This document shows positions 1 through 26,059 of a stretch of 64,000 nt of DNA, piece after piece. The stretch is from Porphyra umbilicalis (Eukaryota > Rhodophyta > Bangiophyceae > Bangiales > Bangiaceae): positions 159,688 to 223,687 of the forward strand of contig KV918868.1 in assembly GCA_002049455.2 (NCBI GenBank). The letters run 5' to 3'. The notes under the pieces were generated by a model. That model was not told where the DNA came from. It ran no database searches and worked only from the letters and a program-made list of their open reading frames with translations. Position 1 is the stretch's first letter; every line of letters starts with the position of its first letter. A program made the translations under genes and the position numbers.

Positions 1-1271
1 CGGATACGCCCTGTATTCGAGACGCGATCGTGCACTTCATTTGGACTTTTTTGTACTTCAGATCAAGTGCGGATCTGACGATAAGCGCCTGATGGCGGCA
101 TTTGCTGTGCTGATGTTCGGAGCCAAGCCCGTGAGTGTCCAAACCAGCCTGGTGTGCACTGCAGCGGAGCAGCACGACACAGGCGCGTGGTCATATTCCA
201 ACGGCACAGAAAGTCCAGGGCGGCCAGGAACGGGGTGTGCTCGCCAGCAGGGCACGCACGAGACAGCTTTTACCCGCGCGCATGCTCGTTCCGCGACCGG
301 CAACTTGTGCTCCTGAGACGGGCGTCACAGCTTGTGCTTCTGTGTGCCAGATCAACAGGAACGTTGCAGTTCGTGCTCGTCCCCTCCTTGAGTAGCACAA
401 CGACCTACTAGTGCCGAACTGCACTATCCGCCGGCACACGCTACAGGTGAAACGGAGCATGACTGCCCACCCCGACAGTTTCGACGCTCTTTCCGACATA
501 TCGTAACGCGGGCACTGCGCAACGGCTTGGACGCTGATTGCGACATATCCCAATGCGGACACTGCACCATGTGGCTGATAGGCACACCCGACGAGGACAC
601 CATTGCGGGGCACCATCGAGCGTCGATGCCGCAGTCGCACTCGCGTCGGAGGCGGACAAGAATTCTGAAAGCACGCACCTGGGAGTCTCGATGCAATGGT
701 CATGCTTTTTCTAAGGGCGAACAGCCACTGTGCCTGCACACAATCTGCTCTCAGCATCGGCATGCGAAGAGCTCCAATCAACTATGCGAACAGAAAAGTC
801 TAAAAATCCGAAATGAGGTATGCAAAAACGAGTGCAGGCCAGTTCAGTGACAACACCGCAAACCTTTGTGACCACAATGCACTTTATGGTACTAGATTGA
901 CATGATTCCGAGATACCTTACCGAACGACGACAAGAACAAGCCAAACGTGTCATTTGCATGAAGGAAGAATACAAACTGGCTATTGCGGGCCTTCCCGTT
1001 CTTGTAGCCATAATGTCACAAGTAGCAGAAGGGTACAAAGAGATTCCGACCCTGTGACAGAGAGGCAAACCAAAACGTAAGATGTAGAGAGGACCGTGCC
1101 CCTGTGTGCCCCCCGTCAAAAATGAAGCAACAAACAGGCTTTGGGAAATCCTACAAGAAGAAGCGGCCCTTCCCAGCACAAGCGCAAGCATGAGATCAAA
1201 GAGAAGCGTCGATCACGCCATCCGGGTCCAACAAATGACCCGCTCACAACACACAGAAGCAAGAGTTCAAG
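1..1271. other. No gene recognised; left flank of helicase gene
   Basis: I see no protein family here on either strand; the short frames overlap each other and lack domain patterns. The only structure noticed is a degenerate tandem pair of about 46 bp around 481-572, sharing GACGCT, CGACATATC and GGGCACTGC-like blocks. The stretch lies downstream of the helicase stop codon and may contain the right-hand end of the recombinase/helicase element, but I found no terminal repeat. Confidence 0.4.
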
Positions 1272-3550
1272 TCAAGCAAAAGCGGTACTATCCGTCTGGG
1301 GCGCACAAACGCCGCAACGACAGCCGTCCACACCTGCGTCCTGCTCACGAGGAGCTCCAAAGAAGTCACAAAGTCGTCGATGGAGGCACCCATCAGCCTC
1401 GAAAAAATCGAGCACCTCGTCAAGAACAGCGATCTGCTGTTTGGCAGAAGTCTTCATTGACCTCTCCAGCAAACGCCCGGCATCTCGCGGATCCTTTTGG
1501 TCGAGGACTGCCAGCGGCTGCACCATCGGGTAGTCATCGCTGTAGTCAATGTCAACGAGGTCAACAGCGGCCAGATCCTCCAGGGCGTCATGAACTGCCG
1601 TCGGTCCTCCTGCTCCAAGCTCCAAGAAGGGAGCCACCGCACAAACGTCGCGAACATCGCGTCGAACGGCCAGGTTGCGAGTCATAGCCGCAAATCCGGG
1701 CTCAAAGTGATCCTTCCACAACGCGTTAGCAAACGTAGACAGCACAGGCCATGGCTGCAGCGTCGATTTGGCGCCTTGGAACGCCGCGATGCGAGCCCGC
1801 TGCGTCCTTCCCGCGAGCGCCAAGCCTGTGCGGCAAAGGGCAGCAAGAATAGCGTTCGTGTCGTCCGCGTCGATGCCAGCCCTGTGGTAGTCCGCCCAAT
1901 GCAGGAACGACGTGGGACCGAGAGGTGTCGTGCGCTCGTAAATCTTGCGCATGAGTGCTACCGTCGTTGACATCGGAAGAGGTGTCGTCTCGATGCTGCG
2001 CCGGGTACTCTCGCTGTCATCTGCATTGTAGAAGCAGACGCAGTACGCGTCTTCACCGTCACGACCGGCACGACCCACTTGCTGGGCGTACTCTGCCACT
2101 GACCTCGCTCCAGCCTAGGACAGACACGAAGTGGAAACGCGCGTGCAGCACACAAAGGAACAAACGTCACTCCAGGACAGAAAGAGGCAACCGCTAATGT
2201 TCCAAATTGTAAGCATGTGTCGTCAGTCTTGTTCTTCAAGCACAAAGACCCAGCTCGAGACAAGACCAATCGACACCAATCGTCCAACAAGAAAAAGAGG
2301 ATTACGTCACAACGCAACTCGAAACAAGTACCAGAGAACTGAAAGAACGTACGAGATGGAGAATGACACGGACATGAGGACAGTCAACGCCAAGACCGAA
2401 GGCAATAGTTGCAATGACGACGACACCACGAGTCGTTAAGAAGAGGTCTTCCACCTCGGCACGGTCGGTCCGCCCCGCATGGTACGCACGAAAAGCAAGT
2501 GCCGCCCCAGTCGCACCGAGCCGCTGCTGCGCCGCGGCAAGCACAAGCTCCTTGCACACATCTTCGGACAGAGCACGGGACGGCACGTAGATGATCGTGT
2601 TGCCCTGCTGGGCGCGTGCCTTGATGGAGAGCCGAAGAGCACGGGCAATGCGCCACTTATACTCCGTCGCCGACGCCACACGCCGCGCAAGCGACACTCG
2701 GCCAAAGGTCAGAGCCGCCGGCCTCTTGACAACATGCAGGAGCAGGTTCTTTCTCAGGAATGGGCCTCGCTGGACTATAGGCGACGACATGCTCATCCGT
2801 CGAATGACCAGCTGCTGGTCGCGGCGCCGCATGGTGGCCGTGAGCCCAAGTCGACGTTGCGCTTGGACAAGCGATGCTCCCATTGCCATCGTCGGCCGCC
2901 ACAGGTACCAATCGTTGTACAGGTGGGCCTCATCAAAGCATAGCAGCGCGATTCCTCGGTCGTTCAAAAGCTTGCGGAAGGAGGGGTCGTGACACAGCAA
3001 CTCCGGAGATATAAACAGGGCGCAAAGCCGCTTCTCCATGATCATGGACTTGCACAGAAGCCGCTCGTCACTCGTGCTTGATGAAGTCAGTGCCATCGCA
3101 GACACGCCTACTTTGTTTAGAGAATCAGCGTGCTGGCGGCTGAGCCCCTTTAGAGGCACCAGCATGACACTTAGAGATCGATCCATCTGATGGAGAAGAT
3201 CAGCAGCCAGGCCGAAAGTGGTCGTCTACCCTAGCATGAGAGAAAGACGTGCATGTCCAGCAATACTGTCGTTAGAACCACAGTACACTCGGCAGATGAA
3301 CTTGAGCAGGTGGCCTTCTGCACAAGGAAAAAAAATGACACGAGGTAAACGTAAAGTAAGACACGAAAGACCATGCGACGGGGCGTACCTTTCCGGATGC
3401 CGTCGCATTCACGGAGATGACCTCTGCGCGGGGGCGATCTTGGTCAAGCAGAGGAAGAAGAGCCTCTAGCTGCCCAGGACGGAAGCTTTCATGACCAAAC
3501 TGGCGCTCGAGGGAGAGAAGGGCAGCTGCTTCGATCTGCGAGCGCTCCAT
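1272..3550 (-). CDS. RecQ-type ATP-dependent DNA helicase, three exons
   Basis: Superfamily 2 helicase of the RecQ type, expected to unwind DNA 3'-5' using ATP. Exons inferred from motifs: 3550-3389, 3225-2353 and 2114-1272, all phase 0, with GTACG-type donors and TAG acceptors; the product is about 625 aa. Residues 18-27 hold the RecQ motif 0 (FG..FRPGQ). The Walker A lysine ends exon 1 and its threonine opens exon 2, which rebuilds ATASGKT at 49-55. DEAH is at 152-155, followed by a W and RP as in RecQ; motif III LTAT is near 182. The second RecA domain ends in QQVGRAGRDG at 356-365. A C-terminal cysteine cluster (C..C...GCRCGVC) fits the RecQ zinc subdomain. No HRDC domain is seen. It starts 339 bp after the recombinase gene on the same strand, so it may be part of one mobile element. 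A host RecQ is the alternative. Confidence 0.85.
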
Positions 3551-3889
3551 GGCTATCGGCGACGAGTCAAGCAGGAAATGTCACGACGATCAGCGTGTGT
3601 CGCCGCATGAACAGAGCCAGAAGACTTGACAACCGCCGGCCGCAGGACGTCGGACCATCGCGTCAAAAAAATGTCATCAGAGCTCTCACGTCGTGAGAAA
3701 AATGGATCCGGTACGCGAATGTATCCGCTGGGTACCATATTTGCAAGTCCTGTGTTCATCAAGCGATTCGTAATCTGGTAACGACACGTCAGGTGTGAGA
3801 GAACGGTTTACAATCACGTGACGTGGAATGAGATCAGCCACGAGATGACGCGCGGAGCCCTGGACCTTTAACACATCAACACCAACAAT
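3551..3889. promoter_or_regulatory. Spacer between recombinase and helicase genes
   Basis: A 339-bp interval between the recombinase stop and the helicase ATG on the minus strand. It carries no supportable ORF. It must hold either the helicase promoter or the 3' end of the recombinase transcript. No clear TATA box or poly(A) signal could be assigned by eye. Confidence 0.35.
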
Positions 3890-5324
3890 TCACAAGTCTA
3901 TGCTCTTGTGCACACACTCGGGGACCTCCCCGCCGTTGATGATGACGTCGGCAAGCGCTGCAGCAGGTGACGTGTAGGTGAACCGCCTCTCGAGCCGGTT
4001 CGATGCTTGCACGTAAGCCCAGTACGCCGACATCGTATGCCAGCCACCGCGGGCCTTGATTTCGGCGTCGGCAACGCCTAGCAGACGATACAGCTGCGCA
4101 CCACCGCGCTTGCATGAGTGAGTACCCAAGAACCGATACGAGTCGACTCCCGCCTCGTCGAGTGCCCGTCGCATGGACTCGAGGAACGCGCTGTCCTTCA
4201 GCCTTGTGTGCGCTGACATTTCCCACGCACCGCAGGGTAGCATCTTGAAGGGGCAGAAGAGAAACCCCTTAGCGTCTCCGCGTAGCATCAGGTACATGGC
4301 CATCGCCAAAACAGGGTCCACTCGTGGGTCTCCCGCCAGTCCTGGCGCCCCTTCAAGGTGATACTGCCGTCCCGACGTCGACGTCTTCGTGCCGTCCAGC
4401 AAATTAATCCGAAAGACCAGATTGCCGCGCACGTCTTCTGTTTGCATGACGTTCTCTCGTCTTCGTGGAGAAACCAACCATGACCGCATGTTCAATACGT
4501 GCAAAGCAGACTCGCTCCCATCACGTCAGACGTGCGGCTCAGAGATACAGCAGGGAACATTGCAATCGGTGCCCAGCACGGCACGAGAGCACGTCCGCCC
4601 GCTCATCAAGACGCCCCACACTCGATCCCGCGTGAACGTACTTAAGTTTTGTGACCTCATCGAACCGCATCATCAGGAAAGTCGCCGTCATCATGGCAGC
4701 GAACTGCGCCAGCCGCTCAGGTGAGATGCTGTCTTGGTCGGAAATAAAGTGATCGTAGTAGGCACATATGTGCCCATACTCCAGCGGGTCCATTGGAAGC
4801 GTGACACGTCCATCACGAGCGAGCTTGACCTTGTGCGCCCGCTTCATGTCGTCAACCGCCTTACTGTCATTCGGGTTACCATTGACGAAAACCTTGCCGT
4901 CAATCTCGCCCGTAGACCAACGCCCAGTTCGGCCGAGCTCGGTGAAAAACAGCGTCATCTGGGCGGAGATGTGCTTGGACGTCGAGATCCCGAGCTCAAA
5001 GTTCTTGGTGCGCACCTTGTAGAACGTTGCAACATGCGCGGCAGTAGTAGCATCGACCTTGGTGGGGGTCACACCCACCTTGGAGCAAAAATCAAGGTAC
5101 TCCTTGCGTGTCCTCTTGTGCACCTTGGAGCTGCTTTGCGACCGGGCCGTCTCGATAGCCGCGGCAGTGGAGGCCACAGGATCATAATCTTTTGCACTCG
5201 GCGCGAGGCTCAGCCACTCAACATTGCGGGCGGTGCTTGACCGACCATCTTGCGATCCGTCCAGGCGGGACGAGCGAGGAACACCACCAGGCGCCGTGGA
5301 CGTCATACTGCCGTTCGAAGACAT
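3890..5324 (-). CDS. Tyrosine recombinase (Crypton/DIRS-like), two exons
   Basis: Integrase of the tyrosine recombinase fold, which cuts and joins DNA through a covalent 3'-phosphotyrosine. Exon 1 is 5324-4642 and exon 2 is 4514-3890; the 127-bp intron has a GTACGT donor and an AG acceptor, and joining gives 435 aa with no stop. Residues about 66-135 look like the helical core-binding domain. The catalytic half shows R220 in MMRFDEVTKL, H360 in THSCKRGGAQ, W386 in GGW and Y395 in WAYVQ. The HxxR position holds K363, with R364 next to it, which is unusual. This layout resembles eukaryotic Crypton or DIRS/Ngaro recombinases; no reverse transcriptase lies nearby, which favours a DNA transposon of Crypton type. 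No GCR1-type DNA-binding domain was recognised. The RecQ gene follows on the same strand. Confidence 0.8.
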
Positions 5325-6228
5325 CGCGCAGGATAGTGCTTGGCACGTGGGAGGGCAGTCGTGGCGGCGAGATGAAGACTTGCCTCTGCGCCCGCGAGGG
5401 ACAGCTTCATCTCAAGCGGGGTCTTGCTCATGGCTTTCGATCGGCCATAAAGTGGATCGCCAGTCTCTTGCATTCGGTAAGGTCGGAACAATCACCAGGA
5501 GCGAATGCGAAGGCGACATCACTTGCATCTACCTGATGAGAGACGGTTTCAAAATACTTACCATATGGTCCGTCCGTGTCCCATGATCATGCAGCTTGTA
5601 ACGAGATGTCGCTCACAGTAGTCTACGACATGATCTGGAGAGAACTGATTTCATCATGTTGCAAGGAAGCGCGAACTAGGTACCAAAACATTCAGCTGGT
5701 AACAAGAGTTTACATACAGCCGTTCTCCCAAAAATCCCTCACTCCAACTGTTGCAAAAGAGTTGCAATTCGGCCTCTACGACGCCGCAGAGGCCGATTTG
5801 GAACTCTTTTGCACCAGTTGGAGTGGGATTTGGAGCGTTGCACGCCATTCGCTGCAGAGTGTATATCCATTTTTCCGCGATTCGTCGGTGTCTCGCAGTC
5901 ATTGTCATAGCAGAAGACTTCTCAGGGGACTGTCTCTGCGCGAGTGGACGGACATTTGGTCAGGATGGGTGCTTTGACCGTCGAGGACAGCAATGGACTC
6001 CAGCGGGGCGTTGCATGCTCACGAAGAAGTGAGGGCGCGAGCAGTGTTCTCAGCGTACGTGACCAAAAAAAAAAAAAGTCTTTATCATGGGCAAGCGCAT
6101 GGATGGTTCGCATGGTCCCTCACAAACACAGAGTCTTCACAAGTTGAAAGCAGACGCACACTGAGTCCCTGAATGATGCATGGCTGGTCTTGAACCATAA
6201 CCTCATCACCGGGTGACCGCTGCTTCCC
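5325..6228. other. Upstream flank of recombinase gene, with hairpin
   Basis: No coding sequence is supported. The stretch contains a long near-perfect hairpin at 5740-5825 (listed separately) and an A-run at about 6065-6077. It separates the recombinase ATG from the start of the first 9.6-kb tandem unit, so one boundary of the recombinase element probably lies here. Confidence 0.4.
5740..5825. repeat. Inverted repeat, 38-bp arms with 10-bp loop
   Basis: Arms 5740-5777 and 5788-5825 are complementary with three mismatches by hand alignment; the loop is ACGACGCCGC. Transcribed in either direction it would fold into a stable stem. Possibilities are the terminal hairpin of a mobile element, a small foldback element, or a small-RNA precursor. 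Confidence 0.8.
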
Positions 6229-6582
6229 CTCATGAAAATTGCCAGGCACAACAGTCGTTTCCCAGAAGTACCGCAAGAAACATAGAACTTGGTTGTGGAG
6301 CATCGAGCTGCACAGAGTGTCCGCCAACAGAATGATATAGGGTGGCAGGAGGTAACATTCAAAAGACTCCAAAAGCCGAAAACGTCGCAGATCGTGTAGG
6401 ATCCCGGCCCCGGGGAGAGCTTGTTTTTAGAGGATGAAAAAGTAGAGGGTGGCAGATCTGATGAGGGCGCAGGCGTATCGGACGACCCAGCATTATCAAC
6501 AATCGAAGGGAGTGCGAAATGGTCGCACAAAGGAGACGGCTGTTCCGTATTTGCTCGCAGCAGCCGTCCGCGAAGAGGGTAC

Positions 6583-6875
6583 GGTGCGTAACGGCTGCTG
6601 CTCGCCGATAGGGAATGATGGGGGAGAGGCAAGGTGAGGTTGGGCGCGATGGACTGTGAGACAAAGGAAGAGCTGGGCCAAACGGGCCAAGAAGTGCCTC
6701 TGCCTGCGTCGAGGGACCTTGATCGAAATTATCGCCTCGAAGCGACTTGCGACGCATTACAGGTCCGGAGCACAAGTATGCCGAGACTGTCGGTATTCAT
6801 CAAATCTTGTTGAAAAACGGCGATTGGGTAACCCAATTACACAATCTGGTACGGATACTTCCACAGATTACCCCC
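6583..6875. repeat. Internal diverged repeat X, uninterrupted copy
   Basis: This stretch resembles 7083-7204 joined to 7983-8167 (roughly two-thirds identity by eye). Shared blocks include GTGCGTAACGG, GGGAATGAT, CAAGAA and CATTACAG. The second copy is split by the hAT-like insertion 7205-7982, so this copy serves as the empty-site reference. Confidence 0.6.
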
Positions 6876-7204
6876 CAGTCTGCCTCGGGAGGGGAGCGGC
6901 CTCGCGTGTGAATCACAAGTGCTAATTGTTGTGTACCACTCTTGATGCGAGCCATCAAGGCCCCAACTGAACTATAGGTTTGGTATCATGGAGCCAGTGC
7001 ACCAAACTGATCTGCATAGTCCCCACTCACTATTACCACAGAACGCTGAGTCGCCTGTTAGAGGAAGCAGATGCATACACACTGTGCGTAACGGCGCCTG
7101 CGTGTCTGAAGGGAATGATTGGGGAGAGGCCCGGTGAAATTGGGCGGGATGGTATGCGAGACAGAAGAAAACCAGGATCGGCTGGGCCTCCAGCGCCAAG
7201 AAGT

Positions 7205-7982
7205 CAGAGATGGCAGGTGATTTATATTTGATTTACATCATGCTGCTTTTGGTGTGTTATTCCGTTTACCCGAATCGTCTCATGATTTAAAACACACGGG
7301 CATTCTCCTGCAACGAGCACGGTGGTGAGTGCCAGCAACCCCCCCGGGCGGTCATGTCGACACGCACGGACGCGTTGGCGGTGGCGTGCGCGCCAATGGA
7401 AAACGCGACAGCGGTGTGGGCAGCGGGGAGGTCGCTGGCGTCGGGCACCGCCTTCGACGCGCCGCCAGCCACGGCGACCGCGAGCGTGGTGAGCAACGCG
7501 GCCATCGTGCCGCTGTCGACGGCGGCAGGCTCGAAAACGCCATCGCGTTCCCTCGTCATCATGGTGCCGAGTGCGTCCCCCACCGCCGTCACGGGCACCC
7601 ACGACACGTTCGCCGCGGCGGCTGCAGCGGCGGCGGTGGCGGCTGTCACGACCGCCACGGCGGTGACCGCCAGGTAGGGCGGCAGCGGACCCCCCCCCCA
7701 CACCCCGTCGCCGTCTCCATCCCCTGCCGCTCGCCTCCCCCCCCTGACTTGGCGACAGCCGCCCAGTCGGTGATGCCCACCGCACGCGACACGAAGGAAA
7801 CACCAGGGTGAGTGGTCCTTATCAGGCCCAATCACGTGGTATTTGTACTTCTATTCCTGACAACGAGCCTAAATGATTGAAATCATGCCCGATGATTTAA
7901 ATCCATAAAACTCCCGTCACGAAAAACAAAGTCAAGGGTTGATTTAAATCCTGGCGCCAGAAATGATTTAATCATACCGCTG
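7205..7982. mobile_element. hAT-like non-autonomous element, copy 1
   Basis: The element is flanked by 8-bp near-duplicates, CAAGAAGT at 7197-7204 and CAAGAAAT at 7983-7990. Its ends begin CAGAG and, on the opposite strand, CAGCG, both fitting the hAT terminal pattern YARNG. The termini are AT-rich, with several TGATTTAAATC-like palindromes at 7890-7975. The core, about 7330-7760, is GC-rich and open on both strands. The minus strand there could encode Ala/Val/Thr-rich hydrophobic segments, so a captured host-gene fragment is possible. No transposase is present. Interruption of repeat X gives independent support for insertion. Confidence 0.55.
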
Positions 7983-8416
7983 CAAGAAATGCCTGTTCGC
8001 ACGTCGATGGCCCATGGTCCGAATGTACGCCTCAAAGTGACTTCCAACACATTACAGATCCGCAACACACGTACACTAAGATTGTCGGTAATCAGAAATC
8101 TTGTTCAGAAACTGCGTTGTTGTAACAATGACACCACATATGGTACGAGTAGTTCCAGAGATTACTCCGACCGTTGTTTGCCGACGAGGACTCGTGCTTT
8201 CTGAAATCAAGACACCGTAACATTCTTCCGTGGGAAGGTCAGTCATCATGGGTCCTCACTGGATTTGTGTTGAAGTGAGTGCTCAGATCAGTAAACTGCT
8301 GCAGGCGTCACCGCGGTGTCCCGGCCCTCCCTCCCTACGTGCTCCATATCTGTGGTCGCGTCGGAAGCGTCTGCTTTCCAACATCAAGTACCTGTCTTGT
8401 TCTTCAACGTGTTGCG

Positions 8417-9337
8417 ATGTCGCCCCCTATCGCATCTCGAGCATTCCCCCTCGTGGGTTCGGACGCCGTACCCGGCGACTCCGTCGTCCTTGATGCCAAT
8501 GACGCCCAAGGATGTGACCCCCAGGGGAAGCTCGTCGTCGGCATTTCGGCGTCGGTCAACCCCATGAATCGCGCCTTTGTGCCCCGCCCACTGCCTGACA
8601 ACATTGACGGCCATCTACGTCTGGCCCGCGCGCTCGTGGCCAACCGGCGGAACAAGAAGATGCCAGCGACGGATCGAGCGCTCTGCAGAACGATCGAGGC
8701 CCGACTCAACAACATCAAAGAGGCGCATCGCCGAGGCGCCGCCAAGGTTGGTCTTGCTGGGGAATTCTTCAAGTCGGCGGCCATTCTGGCCAACTCCACG
8801 ATTGGACGACAGGTATCGGCCACACCGAGCCCCACCCATCAATCAAGAATTGAGGCGCTACCTCGGGCTCAGCCCCCCTTTGGCGCGGGCTCTAACGCGC
8901 TCTCGCGACAGCCCTGCACCTGCTCTGCGGCTTTGCCTCTAAGGGCCTCGCCGCCTGCCATGGAAGTTCGCGACAAGCCCATTGAGATGGATCGACTGCC
9001 ACGGGACTGGGAGCACATGATGGACGTCGTCGAGATGTCCTGCGAGGTCGGTGTCGGGACCACTATGGCCTTGAAGAAGCTTCAAAGCGGCGAGCCCGAT
9101 CGACTAGTGTGGGACAAGAAGCACTCGTTTGGGAGGGCGTCGTCGTCAATGCTCTCGAAGCGCCGCGCCATTGCGAAGGCTGCTATCAAGGCAGGTGGCT
9201 GGGGAGCGCTACGTCTACTTCTTCGTGACGAGCGGGCCAAGCGCACCGGACGTGGAGAGTCGTTTGGATACAACAAGGTGCAGATGTTCTGCTCTGCTAT
9301 GATGCGAGAACATGACGGGTTGCTCTTGTTCTTGTGA
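8417..9337 (+). CDS. Gene A copy 1, unknown function
   Basis: About 306 aa from the ATG at 8417; the frame is open farther upstream but without a better start. I do not recognise a family. The N-terminal half is neutral to basic (RNKKMPATDRALCR, a helix-rich stretch). After a Pro/Ser-rich linker, the C-terminal half has DRLPRDWEHMMDVVEM and a basic helix-rich region (SSSMLSKRRAIAKAAIK...GALRLLLRDERAKR) that could bind nucleic acid. The second copy differs at a dozen or so residues, with conservation best in the C-terminal half, and ends differently because of a one-base difference at the last codons. It lies upstream of gene B on the same strand. An accessory gene of the repeated element is the simplest guess. 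Confidence 0.5.
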   Translation: MSPPIASRAFPLVGSDAVPGDSVVLDANDAQGCDPQGKLVVGISASVNPMNRAFVPRPLPDNIDGHLRLARALVANRRNKKMPATDRALCRTIEARLNNIKEAHRRGAAKVGLAGEFFKSAAILANSTIGRQVSATPSPTHQSRIEALPRAQPPFGAGSNALSRQPCTCSAALPLRASPPAMEVRDKPIEMDRLPRDWEHMMDVVEMSCEVGVGTTMALKKLQSGEPDRLVWDKKHSFGRASSSMLSKRRAIAKAAIKAGGWGALRLLLRDERAKRTGRGESFGYNKVQMFCSAMMREHDGLLLFL

Positions 9338-10209
9338 TCCAATCGCGTCTGCTTCTGCAGTGATGTTAGCGTTCTCTTCTCTTACCGCCTGTGCTCGTTG
9401 GTGTTCTTGGTCTTATAAGATTTGTGCTTTGTGCTCCTGCTCGTATTCCATGACTGTCGAGTACCCTAGTGGCATGCGAGCGTCTGGATGCCACAGACGC
9501 CTACGTTTGCTTGAGAGGTCAGATGTCCTGCCCGATGTCGATGAAATATTGAACCATCTCACAAATGTTATGACTAATACTTGTCACTAGAATGTCACCG
9601 TTACCATATTGCTACGTCCGTAACTAGGTTGTGCGGGCTGCAGACGTGAAAACAAAATCCCGTGACAAAGTGTAAGAGTTCGGTCCTTGTAACATTGCAA
9701 CGTCACTGCTAAACAGTTGTGACGTGAACAAAGGTCGCAACGCATTGCAGGTCCCGACCGCACGCGCACGACGGGCCAAGCACCGAGGTATCCGCGTCGT
9801 GCCCCCCTCGCACGGAATCCGTTCCGTCCGTGTGGCTGTCCCACCCCGCTGTTCTCTCTTCCTCGTGCTTGCGCGGAGCTCCTGCTGAAGGTGGGCTCCC
9901 AGCTCAGGACCTCCATCAACTTGGCTGATCGTCTGATTTCTCGTCATCAGCTGAGGTGCACGCTACGGTCTCAGAGGTTGCTTCTGCAGCGCTTTTTGCT
10001 TTAACGGTACGGCACCACGATTTTCTCGTCACTTGTTGTTCTTGCGTATTGTCCGCCCTGATGAGAGAAGGGGTTGCACTGCTATGGGTTTTAATGAACG
10101 CGTACGTGACCCTTGAACCCATGTATGCTAACCTTTTCACTCCCCCTTCTAGGTGCATCACGCTTTCATGTGCTGAGCTGGTGCTTCCCCCATGTCTCCT
10201 TCCGTGTAG
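9338..10209. other. Intergenic stretch between genes A and B, copy 1
   Basis: No supported gene. Short frames occur on both strands and are shared with copy 2 simply because the DNA is duplicated. A pyrimidine tract followed by TAG lies at 10170-10183, and another TAG immediately precedes the ATG of gene B at 10210, so an upstream intron ending at that ATG cannot be excluded. The copy-2 counterpart is 18927-19820. Confidence 0.35.
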
Positions 10210-13200
10210 ATGGGTGGCAACAACTGGTGCTCTCGAAAGAAGCGCAAGGCCGATCGTACGCGTCAGACGTCCTCGACGACTGGAGGCTCTGCATCCTCTG
10301 CTCCTCCAAAGCGCTCGAAAGAGACTAACGCTAGGGCTGTCGCACCTGGCCGCGCCCCAACCTCCGATGAGGAGGAGTCATCAACCGACAACCCCCGAAA
10401 GACGCCCAAGAGCGGCGACCACGAATCATCAACGCACAAGATGCTCATGGACGCCGTTGCGGCAGCCGTCACGGCGTCTTCACAAGAACTTGACGGTCTT
10501 CAGCGCCGCGTTTCCAAAGAGAAGAAAAGCCTTCAAGAGGCAACTGGTGGGCGAGCCGACGGCCAAGCTGCCACCGACCGCCAAGCTGCTGCCGACCGCC
10601 AAGCCGCAGCCGACCGCCAAGCCGTCCTCCAGCAGCAAGCGGCGGCCGAGAGCGCGGCCGCGGTGGAAAAAGAGCGTCAAAACGCCGCCGACAGGCAAGC
10701 CGCCGCCGAACGTCAAGCCGCCGCCGACCGCCAAGCCGTCCTTGAGAAGCAAGCGGCGGCCGAGAGCGCGGTCGAGGTGGCAAAAGAGCGTCAAGCCGCC
10801 ACCGACCGCCAAGCTGCCGCCGTCCGCCAAGCAGCTGCTGACCGCCAAGCCGCTGCCGACCGCCAAGCCGCCTCCGAACGCCAAGTCGTCCTCGAGCAGC
10901 ATGCCGCGGCCGAGAGCGCCGCAAAGGCGGCCAAAGAGCGACAAGCAGCCGCTGACCGCCAAGCCGTCGCCGACCGCCAAGCAGCCGCTGACCGCCAAGC
11001 CGCCGCCGACCGTCAAGCCGCCGCCGATCGCCAAGGCGCCTCCGACCGCCAAGCCGCCTCCGACCGCCAAGTTGTCCTCGAGCAGCAAGCGGTGGCCGAG
11101 AGCGCCGCCAACGCGGCCAGAGAGCGACAAGCAGCCGCTGACCGCCAAGCCGCCGCCGACCGCCAAGCCGCCACCGACCGCCAAGCCGCCGCCGACCGCC
11201 AAGCCGCCGCCAACGTCCATGCCGCCTTAGACCGCCAAGTCGTCCTCGAGCAGCAAGCAGCGGCAGAGAGTGCCGCCAAGGCGGCTAAAGAGCGACCAGC
11301 CGCCGCCGACCACCAAGCTGCCGCCGACCGCCATGCCGCCGCCGAGCGCCAAGCCGCCGCCAACCGCCAAGCCGTCCTCGAGCAGCAAGCGGCGGCCGAT
11401 AGCGCGGACGAGGCGGCCAAAAAGCGTCAAGCCGCCGCCGACCGCCAAGCTGCCGCCGACCTCCAAGCCGCCGCCGACAGCCAAGCCGCCGCCGCCCGAC
11501 AAGCTGCCGCCGACCGCCAAGCCGCGGCCGAACGCCAAGACGCCGCCAACCGCCAAGACACTGCCGACCGCCACGCGTCCTGCAGCTGCAAGCGGCGGCA
11601 GAGATCGCGGCCGAGGTGGCCAAAGAGCGTCAAGCCGCCGCCGACCACCAAGTCGCCGCCGACCGCCAAGCCGCCCCGACCGCCAAGCCGCCACCGACAG
11701 CCAAGCCGCCGCCGCCCGCCAAGCTGCCGCCGACCGCCAAGCCGCGGCCGAACGCCAAGACGCCGCCGACCGTCAAGCCGCTGCCGACCGCCACGCGGTC
11801 CTGCAGCTGCAAGAGGCGGCAGAGAGCGCGGCCGAGGTGGCCAAAGAGCGCCAAGCCGCCGCCGACCGCCAAGCCACCGCCGACGGCCAGGCCGTCGCGC
11901 CAGCAGACATTGCTACGGCGGCTGGAACGGGGGCTGCGTCGCAGCCGGGCAATGAAGCCCGGGGCACAGCCGGTGCTGCTTTTCAGCTTCCTGCCAATGT
12001 GGCGTGGACCGCGCCTTCGCGTGCACCGGTTCACCGCTCGACTATGAGCGAGGAGTTTGGCGCCGCAGCAAGAAGGGCAGCCGAGACTGTGTGGCTCCGA
12101 TCGCCTCCTGCGCCAGCGCTCTTAAGCGCAGGGACTCCATGGTCTCCCCCTTCCATTGGGGTCCCATCAGAGCCTGCCTTGCTCCCCGGCGGTACTTCTA
12201 CGGCGTCCACTAGGGCATCTCCAACCTCAAATGATCCTTCGTTTGGCCGAGGCTTGGTTTTGGGCTCCACGGCGTCGAGCGCCGCACCGCAGCAGCCGTC
12301 TATTCCAGGTAGGCCCGGTAGCCCCTCCGCGGGCGCCGCTGCAGCTCCTTCTGGGGGAGCACCGGCATCATCTGGAGGAGCTGTTCGGGTACCTCAAGGC
12401 GGTAGCGGTGCGCTACGCGCGCCTGCGAGCGGAGGTGGGGGTGCTGCTGCCTTGACTGGCGCTGCTACTCTACAAGTGCAATTCGAGAGCTGGACACGCC
12501 TGTTTGCCAACTCGGGTGCCACCTTTGATGCCATCCCTCATGGACAGCTCATCTCCGTGCTCGTTAAGGCCGAGGTCTACCCGACGTACCTGATCAACTT
12601 CGCGGCTGGGCGCTCTGTACACACTCCACCGGCGACAAAGAACGGCTTGGAGCCCTGGTTCACTGACGTGCTTCGCAGCGCGCTGCCGGCCGGGCACTAT
12701 GGTGAAGTGACGCGTCTGGGCCCATTCCTTGTCTCCAACCTCCTCACCGTCATCAACCTCCTGTACGCCAAGTTCAACAACGACCTGCCGGACAAGCCGA
12801 TTGCAGATGCCACCGTGGCGCCACTGCTTGGTGCGCTCAACTCCTCGTTGGAGGCGCCCGGCGTGGCCGCGCCTGCGGCGCCCCCGTGCGGCAGCCCGCC
12901 GTCGACGCGCACATCCGAGCCTCTTCGGACAACACAGGTGCAAGGCACTTCGAGCATGCCCGGTGCAGATGCCCCTGCTCTGGCTGAGGGCGGCGTCGCG
13001 CCTGCCCGCCCACCTCGCAAGTCCGTGCGGCAAGGTGCGGGGTCAAAAAAGGCTGCCGCTGTGGACAAGGTGTACCCGAGCAAGCAAGACCCTACTTGGA
13101 GGCGCATGATGATCGCGGCGCGCATCCTTCTCGAGGAGTACGACGCCGAAAAGGACGTTTGGTCGGACATGGACAACATCCGCTCGGACGTGGTAGCCGA

Positions 13201-13695
13201 GACCAAGAAGAGCATCTGCGCGGAGTCATTGCGCATCATGTTGTCTTCCTTCCGATGGGGGGTCACGGCAAACCCGAGAACCGCGTGTACGACAAGCTGC
13301 TTCAAGTCGCCATGAACAAGCCGGGGGTCGACGACAAGGAGAAGGCGCGCGTCTACATCCTCCGACTGTGGCATGTCGCCTGGGCGGATAAGGACTGGAA
13401 AGACAAGGAGGAGGACCGGGAGGTGACAACGACAACCTCCTGGAAGAAGAAGCCGTCTGTTCGAGTGCCGTGGAAGGTGTGGCTCGACGAGCTGCTCGGC
13501 TTTGTGCCGGAGTTGGACCGAATTCGTGCCGAGGAGGGACATGTAGCCACGTCGAGTAGCGCGCCCCCTTCTGGCGGTGTAGCTCCACGGCTGGGCGGGG
13601 GTCCCGCTTCTGTTGCTGAGTCGGCTTTGCATCATACTGGCGGAGAGGGCCCCGGGGGGGACGTCGGTCAAACGGATGAGGCACAGACTCTGTAG
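10210..13695 (+). pseudogene. Gene B copy 1, long coil-repeat protein, frameshifted
   Basis: A protein of about 1,160 codons if indels are ignored; family unknown. Order: a basic Ser/Thr-rich start with KKRK; an acidic patch (SDEEESS); a helix (DAVAAAV); a region of about 440 codons built on (A)AADRQA-type hexamers, spaced by longer VLEQQAAAESA..AAKERQ units and strongly coil-forming; an Ala/Pro/Ser linker; a folded domain from about 12480 (W, then N..A...PPA...L.PWF...VL); and a charged tail with DPTWRRMMIAARILLEEYD and VPWKVWLDELL. One-base losses near 11575, 11675 and 13257 break the frame relative to copy 2. The stop is at 13695. It could be a structural or DNA-binding protein of the repeated element. 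Confidence 0.5.
10549..11905 (+). repeat. Coding minisatellite of gene B copy 1
   Basis: Degenerate 18-bp units around GCCGCCGACCGCCAA encode Ala-Ala-Asp-Arg-Gln-Ala. They group into higher-order blocks of about 100-140 bp, each containing a CTCGAGCAGCA- or TTGAGAAGCA-like segment. Because the units are multiples of three and GC-rich, the other plus frame (PPTAK-type) and minus frames are also open for hundreds of codons. Confidence 0.85.
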
Positions 13696-15101
13696 TGTAG
13701 CTCGGCTGGGGGTTGAGGGTGCGCGAGGTGTTCTTTGTTGGGGATGATACAGGTCCTTTGCCGTATCGAATGCCGTCTTGTCGATACATACGCCCATGCT
13801 GCGCGTCTTGGTGCCGTCGTGTGCAGCGCTGCTTGGGGTTTTCATTGTCTTTGCGCTGGATCCATCTTGTCTCCGTCCTTGGTCGCTTCGTATCATGTGA
13901 GAGTGCGTTGAGGCTACGCCTCGAAGTCGCCATGCTCCCGACTGTGGTGCGCTTGTCCTTGTTTCGTGAATTGTAGTATCACACGGTCACTTGTTTGCGA
14001 TTATCTTGTCACTAGAGGTTGTAATCTCGTGCGTGGTTCTCGACGCTACCTGATTAAACGTAATCTAGTTTGTGATTTTGCTTCTCGTAACAGTAGGGGT
14101 AGTGGTGGTTACAACATCCACGATACCGTACGAGTACACGAACTGTTTGTGGCGATCCGTCCGAGGACCTCCAGTGTCGTGGCTACCGTGGTTTTCCATG
14201 AGCTGGGCGGAAGCGCATCCAAAATATCATTCGTATCGTCACCCTGATCCGCATTCCACTCTGTCAGCGGCAGCTGCCGTGAAAGTTCGACACGGCGGTC
14301 GATCTGTTCTAAATTTTCTTTGGGGCTCGCCACCGCGCCGATGTGCGGCGCGCCCGACACTTCTGCCACCACAGCCATTGGTGTCACCTCTGGGAACACT
14401 GCCACCAGGTCATATTGCATCCCAGACTGCGGGGATTGCGGTCCACACGCCGCTGACTGTGGTTGAGTATTGGCCGCACTCTCCAACGCTGACGCAGCTG
14501 CGACGGCGTTTTCCGCGTCTGCAAACGGTTGAGGAGAAGCCTAGTCGCCGTCGGCGGCAGTAGCGGCGGCCCAGTCGACGGGGATTGCTGCACCGTCGCC
14601 GCCCCCACCGCCGTCACCAAGCACGGATAAAAAATGACTGGTGCACTTCTGGGGCCGCCCAGCCGGTATAACCCAAGCAGGGTGACACAGGGGCCGCCGT
14701 TGCCGCTCCGCGAAACCCCCGCCGAGGTGCTGTGTTCCCGCAGTGCGCTGGGGCCTGTGAGGGGGCGGCAGGCAAAGGTGCGTGCCCGGCCGCCGCCCGC
14801 GCACCCGCCCCCACCGGTGCCGTGGTGCTGACAGAAGTTGTGGCGGACCGACGCGAGGCCGCTCGCTGCACTGCGGCAACCGTCGCCGCACGGGGAGGTG
14901 CAGGCTGCGGCGCCGCCGCCGTCGCCCGACCGTCGGCCGTTGTTGCCAGCAGGGCAACGGCGACCGCGCTAGTAGCCGTCACCGAAAGCACAGGGGTCGC
15001 TTCGCGGGCGACTGTTGTGGCGGGCACCGCGGCCACGCCGAGGCAGCAGTTGTCACACACTGTCGCTTGTGCGTAAAGGCAATGCTGCTGGACACATATC
15101 A
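13696..15101. other. Non-coding part of unit 1, with possible minus-strand exon
   Basis: No family was recognised. On the minus strand, 14542-14109 reads as an ordinary-looking peptide of about 144 aa (ASPQPFADAENAV at its start; LPPSSWKTTVATTLEVLG near its end) immediately after CTAG, which could be a splice acceptor. Upstream on the same strand, 14600-15060 is GC-rich and Ala/Thr/Pro-rich. In the second unit the same frame has a TAA (near 23890), so if this was an exon it is decaying. The copy-2 counterpart is 23276-24681. Confidence 0.3.
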
Positions 15102-15503
15102 ATGCAAATCAGCATGATGGTGTGGGTTTCAGCCCACTCTGACTACATAGGCGTGATCAGGGACGTCCCTTTACCCAGAAGAAATGATAAAGTCAAGCAC
15201 CGCACGACTTTCGTTCTCGGCACCCTACTGTCCCAAGATGTGCTGCCCTTCCCCACCATACAGGCCAAGGACATCCTCCTCGAGTCAGCAGCAGGTCCGA
15301 CCCAACATGAACACCATGTCACAATCCACCGGGGAGCTCAAGTAGGGCAGAGAACAGCCCCTGGTCATGTCGGAGTGCACAGAATTGTACAACAAGGGCT
15401 CCTTCATGCCCATATGACACCCTACCTGCCCTTCACGCGCGCCGCGCGACCGATGTCAGCTTGGAACGAATTTGGTCCGAGTGAATCTTTCAGAATAATC
15501 TAA
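15102..15503 (+). CDS. Small conserved ORF of the tandem unit, copy 1
   Basis: 133 aa from an ATG, unrecognised. It is kept open in both tandem copies with only about three amino-acid differences. Features: HSDYIGVIRDVPLPRR, a His-rich middle (TQHEHHVTIHRG) and no signal peptide or membrane segment. With about 1-2% divergence, an open frame of this length can survive by chance, so a real gene is uncertain. Confidence 0.25.
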   Translation: MQISMMVWVSAHSDYIGVIRDVPLPRRNDKVKHRTTFVLGTLLSQDVLPFPTIQAKDILLESAAGPTQHEHHVTIHRGAQVGQRTAPGHVGVHRIVQQGLLHAHMTPYLPFTRAARPMSAWNEFGPSESFRII

Positions 15504-15838
15504 TATGGTCCAGCGATCAAAAGGTTTCTATTCAATGTCTAGACGATGTGCAGCCTGAGTACAGCACGATACAACCGCAGCTCCTTGCATGGAACTACTA
15601 TTGAGAGGCCTCAGAACGCCTGACATGTGACAGACACGGCTCCCAAGACAGAAACCATGCCACGAGATTTCAATAACATACGTCGAGTGAAAGCTGTCAT
15701 CTGGGCAGTGTCTGATTTTCTGTTGATGGCCGCTCTTCGCTCGGTTAGCCACAACCCCTGGCGCAGGGTCTTTCCATGCGCCCCGTCAATCTGAGACGAG
15801 GGTCACTGCCAGCACGCCGCATTTGTCTCACAGCTCCC

Positions 15839-15839
15839 N
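15839..15839. other. Ambiguous base (N) at the tandem junction
   Basis: The only N noticed in the window sits exactly between the end of unit 1 and the start of unit 2. This suggests a polished join or an unresolved base at the duplication breakpoint. Confidence 0.95.
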
Positions 15840-16811
15840 CTCATGAAAATTGCCAGGCACAACAGTCGTTTCCCAGAAGTACCGCAAGAAACATAGAACT
15901 TGTTGTGGAGCATCGAGCTGCACAGAGTGTCCGCCAACAGAATGATATAGGGTGGCAGGAGGTAACATTCAAAAGACTCCAAAAGCCGAAAACGTCGCAG
16001 ATCGTGTAGGATCCGGCCCCGGGGAGAGCTTGTTTTTAGAGGATGAAAAAGTAGAGGGTGGCAGATCTGATGAGGGCGCAGGCGTATCGGACGACCCAGC
16101 ATTATCAACAATCGAAGGGAGTGCGAAATGGTCGCACAAAGGAGACGGCTGTTCCGTATTTGCTCGCAGCAGCCGTCCGCGAAGAGGGTACGGTGCGTAA
16201 CGGCCTGCTGCTCGCCGATAGGGAATGATGGGGGAGAGCAAGGTGAGGTTGGGCGCGATGGACTGTGAGACAAGGAAGAGCTCGGCCAAACGGGCCAAGA
16301 AGTGCCTCTGCCTGCGTCGAGGGACCTTGATCGAAATTATCGCCTCGAAGCGACTTGCGACGCATTACAGGTCCGAAGCACAAGTATGCCGAGACTGTCG
16401 GTATTCATCAAATCTTGTTGAAAAACGGCGATTGGGTAACCCAATTACACAATCTGGTACGGATACTTCCACAGATTACCCCCAGTCTGCCTCGGGAGGG
16501 GAGCGGCCTCGCGTGTGAATCACAAGTGCTAATTGTTGTGTACCACTCTTGATGCGAGCCATCAAGGCCCCAACTGAACTATAGGTTTGGTATCATGGAG
16601 CCAGTGCACCAAACTGATCTGCGTAGTCCCCACTCACTATTACCACAGAACGCTGAGTCGCCTGTTAGAGGAAGCAGATGCATACACACTGTGCGTAACG
16701 GTGCCTGCGTGTCTGAAGGGAATGATTGGGGAGAGGCCCGATGACATTGGGCGGGATGGTATGCGAGACAGAAGAAAACCAGGATCGGCTGGGCCTCCAG
16801 CGCCAAGAAGT

Positions 16812-17591
16812 CAGAGATGGCAGGTGATTTATATTTGATTTACATCATGCTGCTTTTGATGTGTTATTCCGTTTACCCGAATCGTCTCATGATTTAAAAC
16901 ACACGGGCATTCTCCTGCAACGAGCACGGTGGTGAGTGCCAGCAACCCCCCCGGGCGGTCATGTCGACACGCACGGACGCGTTGGCGGTGGCGTGCGCGC
17001 CAATGGAAAACGCGACAGCGGTGTGGGCAGCGGGGAGGTCGCTGGCGTCGGGCACCGCCTTCGACGCGCCGCCAGCCACGGCGACCGCGAGCGTGGTGAG
17101 CAACGCGGCCATCGTGCCGCTGTCGACGGCGGCAGGCTCGAAAACGCCATCGCGTTCCCTCGTCATCATGGTGCCGAGTGCGTCCCCCACCGCCGTCACG
17201 GGCACCCACGACACGTTCGCCGCGGCGGCTGCAGCGGCGGCGGTGGCGGCTGTCACGACCGCCACGGCGGTGACCGCCAGGTAGGGCGGCAGCGGACCCC
17301 CCCCCCACACCCCGTCGCCGTCTCCATCCCCTGCCGCTCGCCTCCCCCCCCCTGACTTGGCGACAGCCGCCCAGTCGGTGATGCCCACCGCACGCGACAC
17401 GAAGGAAACACCAGGGTGAGTGGTCCTTATCAGGCCCAATCACGTGGTATTTGTACTTCTATTCCTGACAACGAGCCTAAATGATTGAAATCATGCCCGA
17501 TGATTTAAATCCATAAAACTCCCGTCACGAGAAACAAAGTCAAGGGTTGATTTAAATCCTGGCGCCAGAAATGATTTAAATCATACCGCTG
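16812..17591. mobile_element. hAT-like non-autonomous element, copy 2
   Basis: Counterpart of 7205-7982 in the second tandem unit, flanked by CAAGAAGT (16804-16811) and CAAGAAAT (17592-17599). This copy keeps a perfect ATGATTTAAATCAT palindrome near its right end where copy 1 lacks one A. The insertion therefore preceded the 9.6-kb duplication. Confidence 0.55.
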
Positions 17592-18026
17592 CAAGAAATG
17601 CCTGTTCGCACGTCGATGGCCCATGGTCCGAATGTACGCCTCAAAGTGACTTCCAACACATTACAGATCCGCAACACACGTACACTAAGATTGTCGGTAA
17701 TCAAGAAATCTTGTTCAGAAACTGCGTTGTTGTAACAATGACACCACATATGGTACGAGTAGTTCCAGAGATTACTCCGACCGTTGTTTGCCGACGAGGA
17801 CTCGTGCTTTCTGAAATGAAGACACCGTAACATTCTTCCGTGGGAAGGTCAGTCATCATGGGTCCTCACTGGATCTGTGTTGAAGTGAGTGCTCAGATCA
17901 GTAAACTGCTGCAGGCGTCACCGCGGTGTCCCGGCCCTCCCTCCCTACGTGCTGCATATCTGTGGTCGCGTGGGAAGCGTCTGCTTTCCAACATCAAGTA
18001 CCTGTCTTGTTCTTCAACGTGTTGCG

Positions 18027-18926
18027 ATGTCGCCCCCTATCGCATCTCGAGCATTCCCCCTCGTGGGTTCGGACGCCGTACCCGGCGACTCCGTCGTCCT
18101 TGATGCCAATGACGCCCAAGGATGTGACCCCCAGGGGAGGCTCGTCGTCGGCATTTCGGCGTCGGTCAACCCCATGAATCGCGCCTTTGTGCCCCGCCCA
18201 CTGCCTGACAACATTGACGGCCATCGACGTCTGGCCGGCGCGCTCGTGGCCAACCGACGGAACAAGAAGATGCCAGCGACGGATCGAGCGCTCTGCAGAA
18301 CGATCGAAGCCCGACTCAACAACATCAAGGAGGCGCATCGCCGAGGCGCCGCCAAGGTTGGTCTTGCTGGGGAATTCTTCAAGTCGGCGGCCATTCTGGC
18401 CAACTCCACGTTTGGACGACAGGTATCGGCCACACCGAGCCCCACCCATCAATCAAGAATTGAGACGCTACCTCGGGCTCAGCCCCCCTTTGGCGCGGGC
18501 TCTAACGCGCACTCGCGACAGCCCTGCACCTGCTCTGCGGCTTTGCCTCTAAGGGCCTCGCCGCCTGCCATGGAAGTTCGCGACAAGCCCATTGAGATGG
18601 ATCGACTGCCACGGGACTGGGAGCACATGATGGACGTCGTCGAGATGTCCTGCGAGGTCGGTGTCGGGACCACTATGGCCTTGGAGAAGCTTCAAAGCGG
18701 CGAGCCCGATCGACTAGTGTGGGACAAGAAGCACTCGTTTGGGAGGGCGTCGTCGTCAATGCTCTCGAAGCGCCGCGCCATTGCGAAGGCTGCTATCAAG
18801 GCAGGTGGTTGGGGAGCGCTACGTCTACTTCTTCGTGACGAGCGGGCCAAGCGCACCGGACGTGGAGAGTCCTTTGAATACGACAAGGTGCTGATGTTCT
18901 GCTCTGCTATGATGCGAGGGACATGA
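18027..18926 (+). CDS. Gene A copy 2, unknown function
   Basis: Tandem copy of 8417-9337, 299 aa. It differs by scattered substitutions (for example R for L and G for R near residues 65-69, E for K in the ...TMALEKLQSGE stretch). The C-terminus is shorter: GCGAGGGACATGA gives a stop where copy 1 reads GCGAGAACATGACGG. Most of the frame is preserved in both copies, which argues that it is or was a real gene. No domain is recognised. Confidence 0.5.
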   Translation: MSPPIASRAFPLVGSDAVPGDSVVLDANDAQGCDPQGRLVVGISASVNPMNRAFVPRPLPDNIDGHRRLAGALVANRRNKKMPATDRALCRTIEARLNNIKEAHRRGAAKVGLAGEFFKSAAILANSTFGRQVSATPSPTHQSRIETLPRAQPPFGAGSNAHSRQPCTCSAALPLRASPPAMEVRDKPIEMDRLPRDWEHMMDVVEMSCEVGVGTTMALEKLQSGEPDRLVWDKKHSFGRASSSMLSKRRAIAKAAIKAGGWGALRLLLRDERAKRTGRGESFEYDKVLMFCSAMMRGT

Positions 18927-19820
18927 CGGGTTGCTCTTGTTCTTGTGATCCAATCGCGTCTGCTTCTACAGTGATGTTAGCGTTCTCTTCTCTTACCGCC
19001 TGTGCTCGTTGGTGTTCTTGGTCTTATAAGATTTGTGCTTTGTGCTCCTGCTCGTGTTCCATGACTGTGGAGTACCCTAGTGGCATGCGAGCGTCTGGAT
19101 GCCACAGACGCCTACGTTTGCTTGAGAGGTCAGATGTCCTGCCCGATGTCGATGAAATATTGAACCATCTCACAAATGTTGTGACTAATACTTGTCACTA
19201 GAATGTCACAGTTACCATATTGCCAAGTCCGTAACTAGGTTGTGCGGGCTGCAGACGTGAAAACAAAATCCCGTGACAAAGTGTAAGAGTTCGGTCCTTG
19301 TAACATTGCAACGTCACTGCTAAACAGTTGTGACGTGAACAAAGGTCGCAACGCATTGCAGGTCCCGACCGCACGCGCACGACGGGCCAAGCACCGAGGT
19401 ATCCGCGTCGTGCCCCCCTCGCACGGAATCCGTTCCGTCCGTGTGGCTGTCCCACCCCGCTGTTCTCTCTTCCTCGTGCTTGCGTGGAGCTCCTGCTGAA
19501 GGTGGGCTCCGAGCTCAGGACCTCCATCAACTTGGCTGATCGTCTGATTTCTCGTCATCAGCTGAGGTGCACGCTACGGTCTCAGAAGATGCTTCTGCAG
19601 CTCTTTTTGCTTTAACGGTACGGCACCACGATTTTCTCGTCACTTGTTGTTCTTGCGTATTGTCCGCCCTGATGAGAGAAGGGGTTGCACTGCTATGGGT
19701 TTTAATGAACGCGTACGTGACCCTTGAACCCATGTATGCTAACCTTTTCACTCCCCCTTCTAGGTGCATCACGCTTTCATGTGCTGAGCTGGTGCTTCCC
19801 CCATGTCTCCTTCCGTGTAG

Positions 19821-22800: not shown

Positions 22801-23275
22801 GGAGTCATTGCGCATCATGTTGTCTTCCTTCCGATGGGGAGGTCACGGCAAACCCGAGAACCGCGTGTACGACAAGCTGCTTCAAGTCGCCATGAACAAG
22901 CCGGGGGTCGACGACAAGGAGAAGGCGCGCGTCTACATCCTCCGACTGTGGCATGTCGCCTGGGCGGATAGGGACTGGAAAGACAAGGAGGAGGACCGGG
23001 AGGTGACAACGACAACCTCCGGGAAGAAGAAGCCGTCTGCTCGAGTGCCGTGGAAGGTGTGGCTCGATGAGCTGCTCGGCTTTGTGCCGGAGTTGGACCG
23101 AATTCGTGCCGAGGAGGGACATGTAGCCACGTCGATTAGCGCGCCCCCTTCTGGCGGTGTGGCTCCACGGCTGGGCGGGGGTCCCGCTTCTGTTGCTGAG
23201 TCGGCTTTGTATCATACTGGCGGAGAGGGCCCCGGGGGGGACGTCGGTCAAACGGATGAGGCACAGACTCTGTAG
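19821..23275 (+). pseudogene. Gene B copy 2, frameshifted at other sites
   Basis: Tandem copy of 10210-13695 with the same start and stop. The coil repeat (20160-21475) is in frame throughout, unlike copy 1. The frame is lost near 21556, where GGTTTTTC replaces GCTTTTC, and near 22623-22632, where eight A plus T replace six A plus GG. It is intact across the positions broken in copy 1. Both copies agree on the downstream domain and the charged tail. Decay after duplication, or homopolymer error in the assembly, would both explain this. Confidence 0.5.
20160..21475 (+). repeat. Coding minisatellite of gene B copy 2
   Basis: Same 18-bp Ala-Asp-Arg-Gln coding units as at 10549-11905, but with a different arrangement and number of higher-order blocks (for example an extra LEKQAAAESAVEVA block). 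This indicates repeat turnover since the duplication. Confidence 0.85.
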
Positions 23276-24681: not shown

Positions 24682-25083
24682 ATGCAAATCAGCATGATGG
24701 TGTGGGTTTCAGCCCACTCTGACTACATAGGCGTGATCAGGGACGTCCCTTTACCCAGAAGAAATGATAAAGTCAAGCACCGCACGACTTTCTTTCTCGG
24801 CACCCTACTGTCCCAAGATGTGCTGCCCTTCCCCACCATACAGGCCAAGGACATCCTCCGCGAGTCAGCAGCAGGTCCGACCCAACATGAACACCATGTC
24901 ACAATCCACCGGGGAGCTCAAGTAGGGCAGAGAACAGCCCGTGGTCATGTCGGAGTGCACAGAATTGTACAACAAGGGCTCCTTCATGCCCATATGACAC
25001 CCTACCTGCCCTTCACGCGCGCCGCGCGACCGATGTCAGCTTGGAACGAATTTGGTCCGAGTGAATCTTTCAGAATAATCTAA
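24682..25083 (+). CDS. Small conserved ORF of the tandem unit, copy 2
   Basis: Counterpart of 15102-15503 and of equal length. Substitutions include F for V in the KHRTTF stretch, R for L at ...DILRES and R for P at ...QRTARGH. Function unknown. Confidence 0.25.
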   Translation: MQISMMVWVSAHSDYIGVIRDVPLPRRNDKVKHRTTFFLGTLLSQDVLPFPTIQAKDILRESAAGPTQHEHHVTIHRGAQVGQRTARGHVGVHRIVQQGLLHAHMTPYLPFTRAARPMSAWNEFGPSESFRII

Positions 25084-26056: not shown

Positions 26057-26059
26057 GAC

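Follow-up and report, generated by a model that had tools for sequence, protein, structure and literature searches.

We analysed a stretch of 64,000 nucleotides from the red alga Porphyra umbilicalis (contig KV918868.1, positions 159,688 to 223,687; here the window), in which a tyrosine recombinase (YR) gene lies next to a RecQ helicase gene. We consider it likely that the two are the core genes of a family of 27-44 kb YR DNA transposons which move via a CAGTTA core. The genes co-occur across the genome, the copies share their termini and are inserted independently of each other, and one of them has a paralogous empty site with a single core. On the sequence evidence, this is a recently mobile family of large YR transposons with RecQ as a retained core gene. 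Window positions are counted from its first letter, and the contig that carries it is labelled C108.

The YR gene is on the minus strand at 5324-3890. Its two exons (5324-4642 and 4460-3890) surround a GT..AG intron (4641-4461) and encode 417 amino acids. The RecQ gene is found 339 bp further on the same strand, at 3550-1272, with three exons (3550-3389, 3225-2353 and 2114-1272), GT..AG introns and a product of 625 amino acids. Both frames are open after the predicted splicing. In the other copies that we read the exon positions correspond, even where identity drops to 53-58% (YR exon 1) or 36-44% (RecQ exons). The preliminary description of this DNA had proposed exactly such an intact, intron-bearing pair, and the pair held up.

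All three aligned RecQ members matched TIGR00614 (best E 4.5e-50, under the curated cut-off). In Pfam, RecQ matched DEAD (E 5.8e-16), Helicase_C (4.4e-10) and RecQ_Zn_bind (1.3e-4, just short of the cut-off), and it matched the structure of E. coli RecQ, 1oyw, with E 5.7e-35. Motifs I, II and VI were invariant in the three aligned copies. The DEAH, QxxGRxGRDG and zinc-binding features first read from the letters alone were all found again, and Walker A was present too. The RecQ_Zn_bind match covers residues 556-615, well over 100 residues past motif VI (360-365), while in E. coli RecQ the zinc region directly follows the helicase core. A comparison of the window RecQ with 1oyw aligned the two zinc regions, but the score (-2.1) was not significant. 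The same long gap between motif VI and the zinc region (window 1272-2114) was also present in the diverged RecQ copies of C46 and C77.

For the recombinase, the window protein matched the PHROG_1 integrase with E 1.2e-5 over residues 88-379, and Cre weakly in phmmer (E 0.034, residues 151-379). Residues R220, K253, H342, W368 and Y377, with roles assigned by eye, were invariant in all four aligned copies. The folds predicted for YR exon 2 alone and RecQ exon 3 alone had a mean pLDDT of 38.6 each.

To see how often the pair recurs, we searched the window's own genome (83.8 Mb, 665 contigs). Since these searches score the best candidates only, all counts are lower bounds, and a diverged RecQ near a distant YR could be missed. 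After merging two split loci we counted 53 YR loci with an exon-2 match: 27 close ones with at least 48% identity, among them damaged copies, and 26 distant ones with 29-39%. Distant loci matching YR exon 1 alone, such as those on C152 and C134, were left out of the count. A same-strand RecQ match lay within 4 kb downstream in 22 of the 27 close loci and within 15 kb in 24; for the distant clade the corresponding numbers were 1 and 2 of 26. RecQ is a multi-copy gene in this genome, not a single-copy one. The earlier idea of a recurrent YR-RecQ mobile system gains from these counts, and its stated counter-case, recombinase copies that never carry the helicase, is not what we see.

Coincidence does not account for the pairing: a nearby RecQ would be expected by chance at about 0.001 per locus. 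Because this figure ignores the descent of copies from one another, the deep subfamilies are better evidence for the pairing. The copies on C46, C77, C1, C411 and C110 share only 52-58% identity with the window copy in YR exon 1 and 38-42% in RecQ exon 2.

The same loci bear on another explanation, namely that RecQ is a passenger with no part in movement; it could be, for instance, a selfish gene or one that protects the host, carried along with the YR. The decayed copy at C387:11500-19500 (L054) has kept its YR (85% DNA identity) although the RecQ region (window 151-3722) is gone, and most distant YR relatives have no RecQ nearby. However, the C387 YR carries stops, hence it is no evidence of an active element without RecQ, and across subfamilies RecQ stays beside YR on the same strand even where RecQ identity is as low as the values above. 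We regard the passenger explanation as unlikely, but as the most serious of the competing ones.

Both genes also show the signs of selection. Between subfamilies, dN/dS over five pairs was 0.04-0.16 for YR and 0.13-0.27 for RecQ, with dS saturated; for the closer pair C108/C84 it was 0.24 and 0.21, respectively. These ratios indicate purifying selection on both genes between subfamilies. In the very recent pairs C108/C41 and C77/C411 the changes are few and the ratios lie at 0.5-3.4, which is compatible with neutral drift in young copies.

Next to the genes, the ends define the element. Oriented by YR and RecQ, it occupies C108:159493-195664 on the minus strand (36,172 bp), with the 5' end at window position 35977 and the 3' end 194 bp to the left of the window. 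These are the points where copies share their ends and then diverge. The shared ends also place the 5' core CAGTTA (TAACTG on the plus strand) at 35972-35977 on the minus strand and the 3' core CAGTTA at C108:159490-159495, beyond the window. Junction positions gave four further complete copies: C41:208804-244951 (36.1 kb), C84:119538-163092 (43.6 kb), C177:104891-131827 (26.9 kb) and C383:10141-51354 (41.2 kb). All five complete copies, 26.9-43.6 kb long, have sharp ends and unrelated flanks. Aligning copies to define the ends, as had been suggested at the outset, was successful and changed the picture. The interval first described holds two real genes, but it is just a part of an element that reaches 35977 and extends past the left edge of the window. 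Similarly, the proposed compact Crypton plus helicase gives way to an element of 27-44 kb with at least two further conserved genes.

Seven of the eight located 3' ends (C108, C41, C84, C75b, C177, C383 and C429, from two subfamilies; the C77/C411 subfamily is not among the located ends) finish with TCTAACCCCCAG followed by NTA. The flanks behind them start with TTA, ATA or GTA and are otherwise unrelated. At the other side, all seven 5' ends (C108, C41, C84, C383, C177, C75a and a 5' fragment in C77) read NAGTTA, as AGTTA[C/G/T]CCTTGCG, after unrelated flanks. Both ends of all five complete copies carry the 6-bp core, either CAGTTA or a one-letter variant. A candidate 5' end at L065:5399 was rejected, as other copies run past that point.

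The C108 and C41 elements are about 98% identical where compared (for window 8000-23000, via repeat copies and gene matches only) and have a 9.6-kb tandem duplication in common, yet their flanks differ on both sides. Therefore, the whole unit has moved. One could instead imagine that a host block was copied by segmental or subtelomeric duplication, in the manner of the telomere-linked RecQ genes of fungi. RecQ families linked to telomeres are described in the part of the fungal work available to us (PMC4522978), and C108 and C41 do share about 36 kb at 98%. But the breaks fall at the same core at both ends in two diverged subfamilies with unrelated flanks, all five complete copies are internal to their contigs (a statement on contig position, not on telomere position), and one copy, C84, has an empty site. 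Such a duplication is very improbable.

For the target side of the proposed transposition, we searched the joined flanks of C84, C108 and C41. The 3' flank of C84 is a high-copy repeat, and this repeat crosses the joined flanks in 35 of 41 rows; two more of the rows are C84's own junctions. The filled site reads CACGCC-CAGTTA-[element]-CAGTTA-AGACACC, and the six empty-site copies read directly have CACGCC-CAGTTA-AGACACC with one core. We take these single-CAGTTA repeat copies to be a paralogous empty site for C84. Taken over all junctions, the target core reads [C/T/G]AG[T/A/G]TA. If strand exchange takes place within a 6-bp core, the element letters should be fixed and the letter to either side of them variable; a free target-site duplication would not predict this. 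The core pattern together with the empty site fits site-specific integration by a YR.

Several observations weigh against the proposed transposon family. At the C84 empty site the repeat begins just before the core, so the left overlap is no more than 6-8 bp. For the joined flanks of C108 and C41 no uninterrupted site was found, and no row went further than about 6 bases past the core. The eighth 3' end, from the decayed C387, stops 7 bp before the motif, and in C75a the 3' end was looked for and not found. Terminal inverted repeats, considered as a strong signature, had to be dropped because they are weak against shuffles (56 of 2000 shuffles reached the score in group A and 224 of 2000 in group B). 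No RecQ match was found at three of the 27 close YR loci (C387, C29 and C2), and at two more (C119 and C10, the latter weak) it was 12-13 kb away. In the C108/C41 pair, RecQ has pN above pS on few changes. The recombinase assignment has its own weak points: PHROG_1 was matched at E≤1 by the window copy alone out of four aligned YR copies, Pfam gave no relevant match (just an irrelevant one at E 0.24), and a PDB profile search with the four-copy YR profile returned zero chains at E≤1. Its motif is HSxKR, where the HxxR position holds lysine and the arginine follows one residue further on. Finally, the family is known here from DNA alone and not from an observed circle, transcript or movement.

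Some observations around the insertion sites stand beside these. In C108 and C41 a different repeat abuts the core on each side. The flanks of C108, C41 and C84 are high-copy repeats whose own ends fall at or near a CAG[T/A]TA core, and the 5' flank of C41 has the look of an inverted repeat, approximately 75 bp long, belonging to an element of 1.2-1.3 kb. Repeat ends at the core may mean that the repeats share the target motif, are non-autonomous relatives or have accreted in tandem. C234 was considered as the empty allele of the C108 insertion and rejected, because its left side matches window 57092-58010 and not the left flank. C234:79109-84846 joins sequence like window 57092-58010 straight to sequence like 36002 onward (97%), as if the 22-kb segment at window 36009-58010 were tandem, circularised or rearranged in C234. 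A 172-bp high-copy repeat at window 36049-36220 is missing at the matching place in C234 and is probably a recent small insertion. The G+C content climbs to 84.5% at the contig end (window 62001-64000), much higher than in most of the window.

YR enzymes can join DNA ends into a circle, which is then recombined with a target core. For the transposon family proposed here, the YR would join the ends ...CCCCCAG and AGTTA[C/G/T]CC... to give an excised circle, whose CAGTTA core would recombine with a NAGNTA site elsewhere. This would leave a single core at each end and no further duplication. In line with what has been proposed for Cryptons, integration probably proceeds through such an inferred circle. 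RecQ enzymes are able to unwind branched DNA and also process intermediates of recombination, and for this reason RecQ is a plausible transposition partner. It would unwind or resolve branched DNA during excision, reintegration or replication of the large circle. We put the chances of this role at roughly even.

The element contains further genes. A plus-strand frame at 31188-33059 resembles an Ulp1/C48-like peptidase; it has one TGA at 31902-31904 and, read through, matches Pfam PF02902 with E 0.0014, below Pfam's cut-off. The assignment of this frame is made with modest confidence. What we call gene Y is a conserved plus-strand piece at 22547-23272 (the second tandem copy, the first being near 12988-13692), which is multi-copy on YR/RecQ contigs and had no match in Pfam. 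Just upstream, at 19821-21788 on the plus strand, there is a repeat-rich frame of ADRQAA units which looks like a coiled coil by eye. It probably forms one gene Y with the conserved piece, the two being in different frames here; in C84, C177 and one of the C41 copies, the gene Y piece sits within open frames of about 980-1140 amino acids. The C termini of the peptidase ORF and of ORF 19540-22968 are weakly similar (25% over 100 residues; E 5e-4, which applies to this single comparison).

The order C48-like peptidase, Y, YR, RecQ, as counted from match tables, was present in 13 of the 27 close YR loci (C108, C41, C84, C177, C119, C70, C75a, C355, C383, C429, C46, C77 and C1). In four of the other 14 (on contigs C275, C48, C110 and C411), the contig starts within 10 kb on the side where the missing genes would be. 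Relative to YR, the peptidase lies on one strand in the C108/C75 groups and on the other in C46/C77/C1. Peptidase matches were also found on contigs with no YR or RecQ match (C145, C323, C166 and C32), possibly as fragments or as other elements using the same peptidase.

The 9.6-kb tandem duplication has its first copy at 6225-15838 and its second at 15835-25418 (96% identity). A plus-strand open frame of 345 amino acids lies at 17889-18923 (first copy at 8279-9334), and the stretch 8002-9309 is common to the window and C84 at 75-80% DNA identity. Near the 5' end of the element there is a 168-bp tandem array of 5.4 copies (34365-35273). Two high-copy repeats, at 24067-26407 and 7310-7983, are nested within the element.

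With this gene content we asked whether the element could be an endogenous virus, for instance a polinton-like virus, that integrates by a YR and uses RecQ and the protease as replication and maturation genes. Ulp1-like proteases do occur in polinton-like viruses. In the accessible text of a study on cryptophyte polinton-like viruses (PMC12220804), these measure 14-40 kb, a range that overlaps the element's 27-44 kb, and many of them have a YR. Against a virus, the element ORFs scanned, which are a part of the frames, gave no credible Pfam score for a capsid, a packaging ATPase or a DNA polymerase. The nearest such match was Taq-exonuc with E 0.037, under the cut-off, in a tandem-repeat ORF (34038-34829). 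No major capsid protein was among the scanned ORFs, where intron-split or divergent genes could escape. Moreover, the genes have predicted introns, and YR and RecQ had no relatives in viral contigs in a search that needs exact short peptide matches; the same kind of search with YR alone found none in prokaryote genomes. The word RecQ appears 0 times in the main text of the cryptophyte study as available to us (PMC12220804). A viral origin is improbable.

A conserved YR-RecQ-peptidase element would make it testable how such a recombinase moves tens of kb, and whether it needs a dedicated helicase. With defined ends, a core and one empty site, plasmid assays are feasible immediately.

Large cargo-carrying YR elements are best known from fungi, where a YR mobilises the very large Starships, which end in short direct repeats. 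The Starship captain is the first 5' gene and carries DUF3435, and we know of no RecQ core gene in Starships. As commonly described, Starships resemble the present element in their very large size, mobilisation by a YR and short terminal direct repeats. Unlike a captain, the YR is not terminal: it begins at window 5324, about 30.7 kb inward of the element's 5' end at 35977. It had no Pfam match to DUF3435.

Academ transposons have a DDE-type transposase and terminal inverted repeats. The present element resembles them as a eukaryotic transposon with a RecQ and differs from them by its YR. The preliminary description named no family pairing a Crypton-like recombinase with a RecQ. RecQ in a eukaryotic transposon does have a precedent, as Bao and Jurka (2013) name a RecQ helicase in Academ in the part of their text available to us (PMC3627910).

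Cryptons (CryptonF, S, A and I) have terminal direct repeats of 4-6 bp in fungal and stramenopile groups, and some oomycete CryptonF/S elements encode a C48 (Ulp1) peptidase, according to the available text of Kojima and Jurka (2011), in whose main text the word helicase appears 0 times (PMC3212892). The present element is like these Cryptons in having a YR without reverse transcriptase, short terminal direct repeats and a C48-like peptidase, as in some oomycete ones (PMC3212892, as available). It has the catalytic set R, K, H, W and Y in four of four copies, with the HxxR read as K then R, and terminal repeats of 6 bp, within the 4-6 bp of Cryptons, without more target duplication in the five complete copies; the empty site of C84 has one core. 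The YR had no match to DUF3504, a Pfam domain derived from Cryptons that is to be expected in CryptonA but not in every group. Unlike Cryptons, the element is 27-44 kb long and carries RecQ and gene Y.

With YR-encoding polinton-like viruses, as far as the accessible text describes them (PMC12220804), it shares protist genomes, a similar size and YR integration without target-site duplication. It differs from them in the predicted introns, in the RecQ, which that text does not mention, and in that no capsid or polymerase was found in the ORFs scanned. Among the matches listed in open-access full text, a search that left Repbase entries outside, no published YR element with a RecQ was found.

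The element is Crypton-like in mechanism and Starship-like in size, with the Pfam domains of neither. We read it as a YR transposon of a new kind of composition, a variant of the YR transposons, which is set apart from the known systems partly by how these are generally described. A bolder proposal, to which we give slightly less than even odds, would place these giant elements in a eukaryotic YR transposon superfamily of their own, with the Starships as its analogous but distinct counterpart. Such elements would run on a four-gene engine of C48-like peptidase, Y, YR and RecQ, in which RecQ would be the obligate partner that enables excision, circle replication or reintegration of tens of kb.

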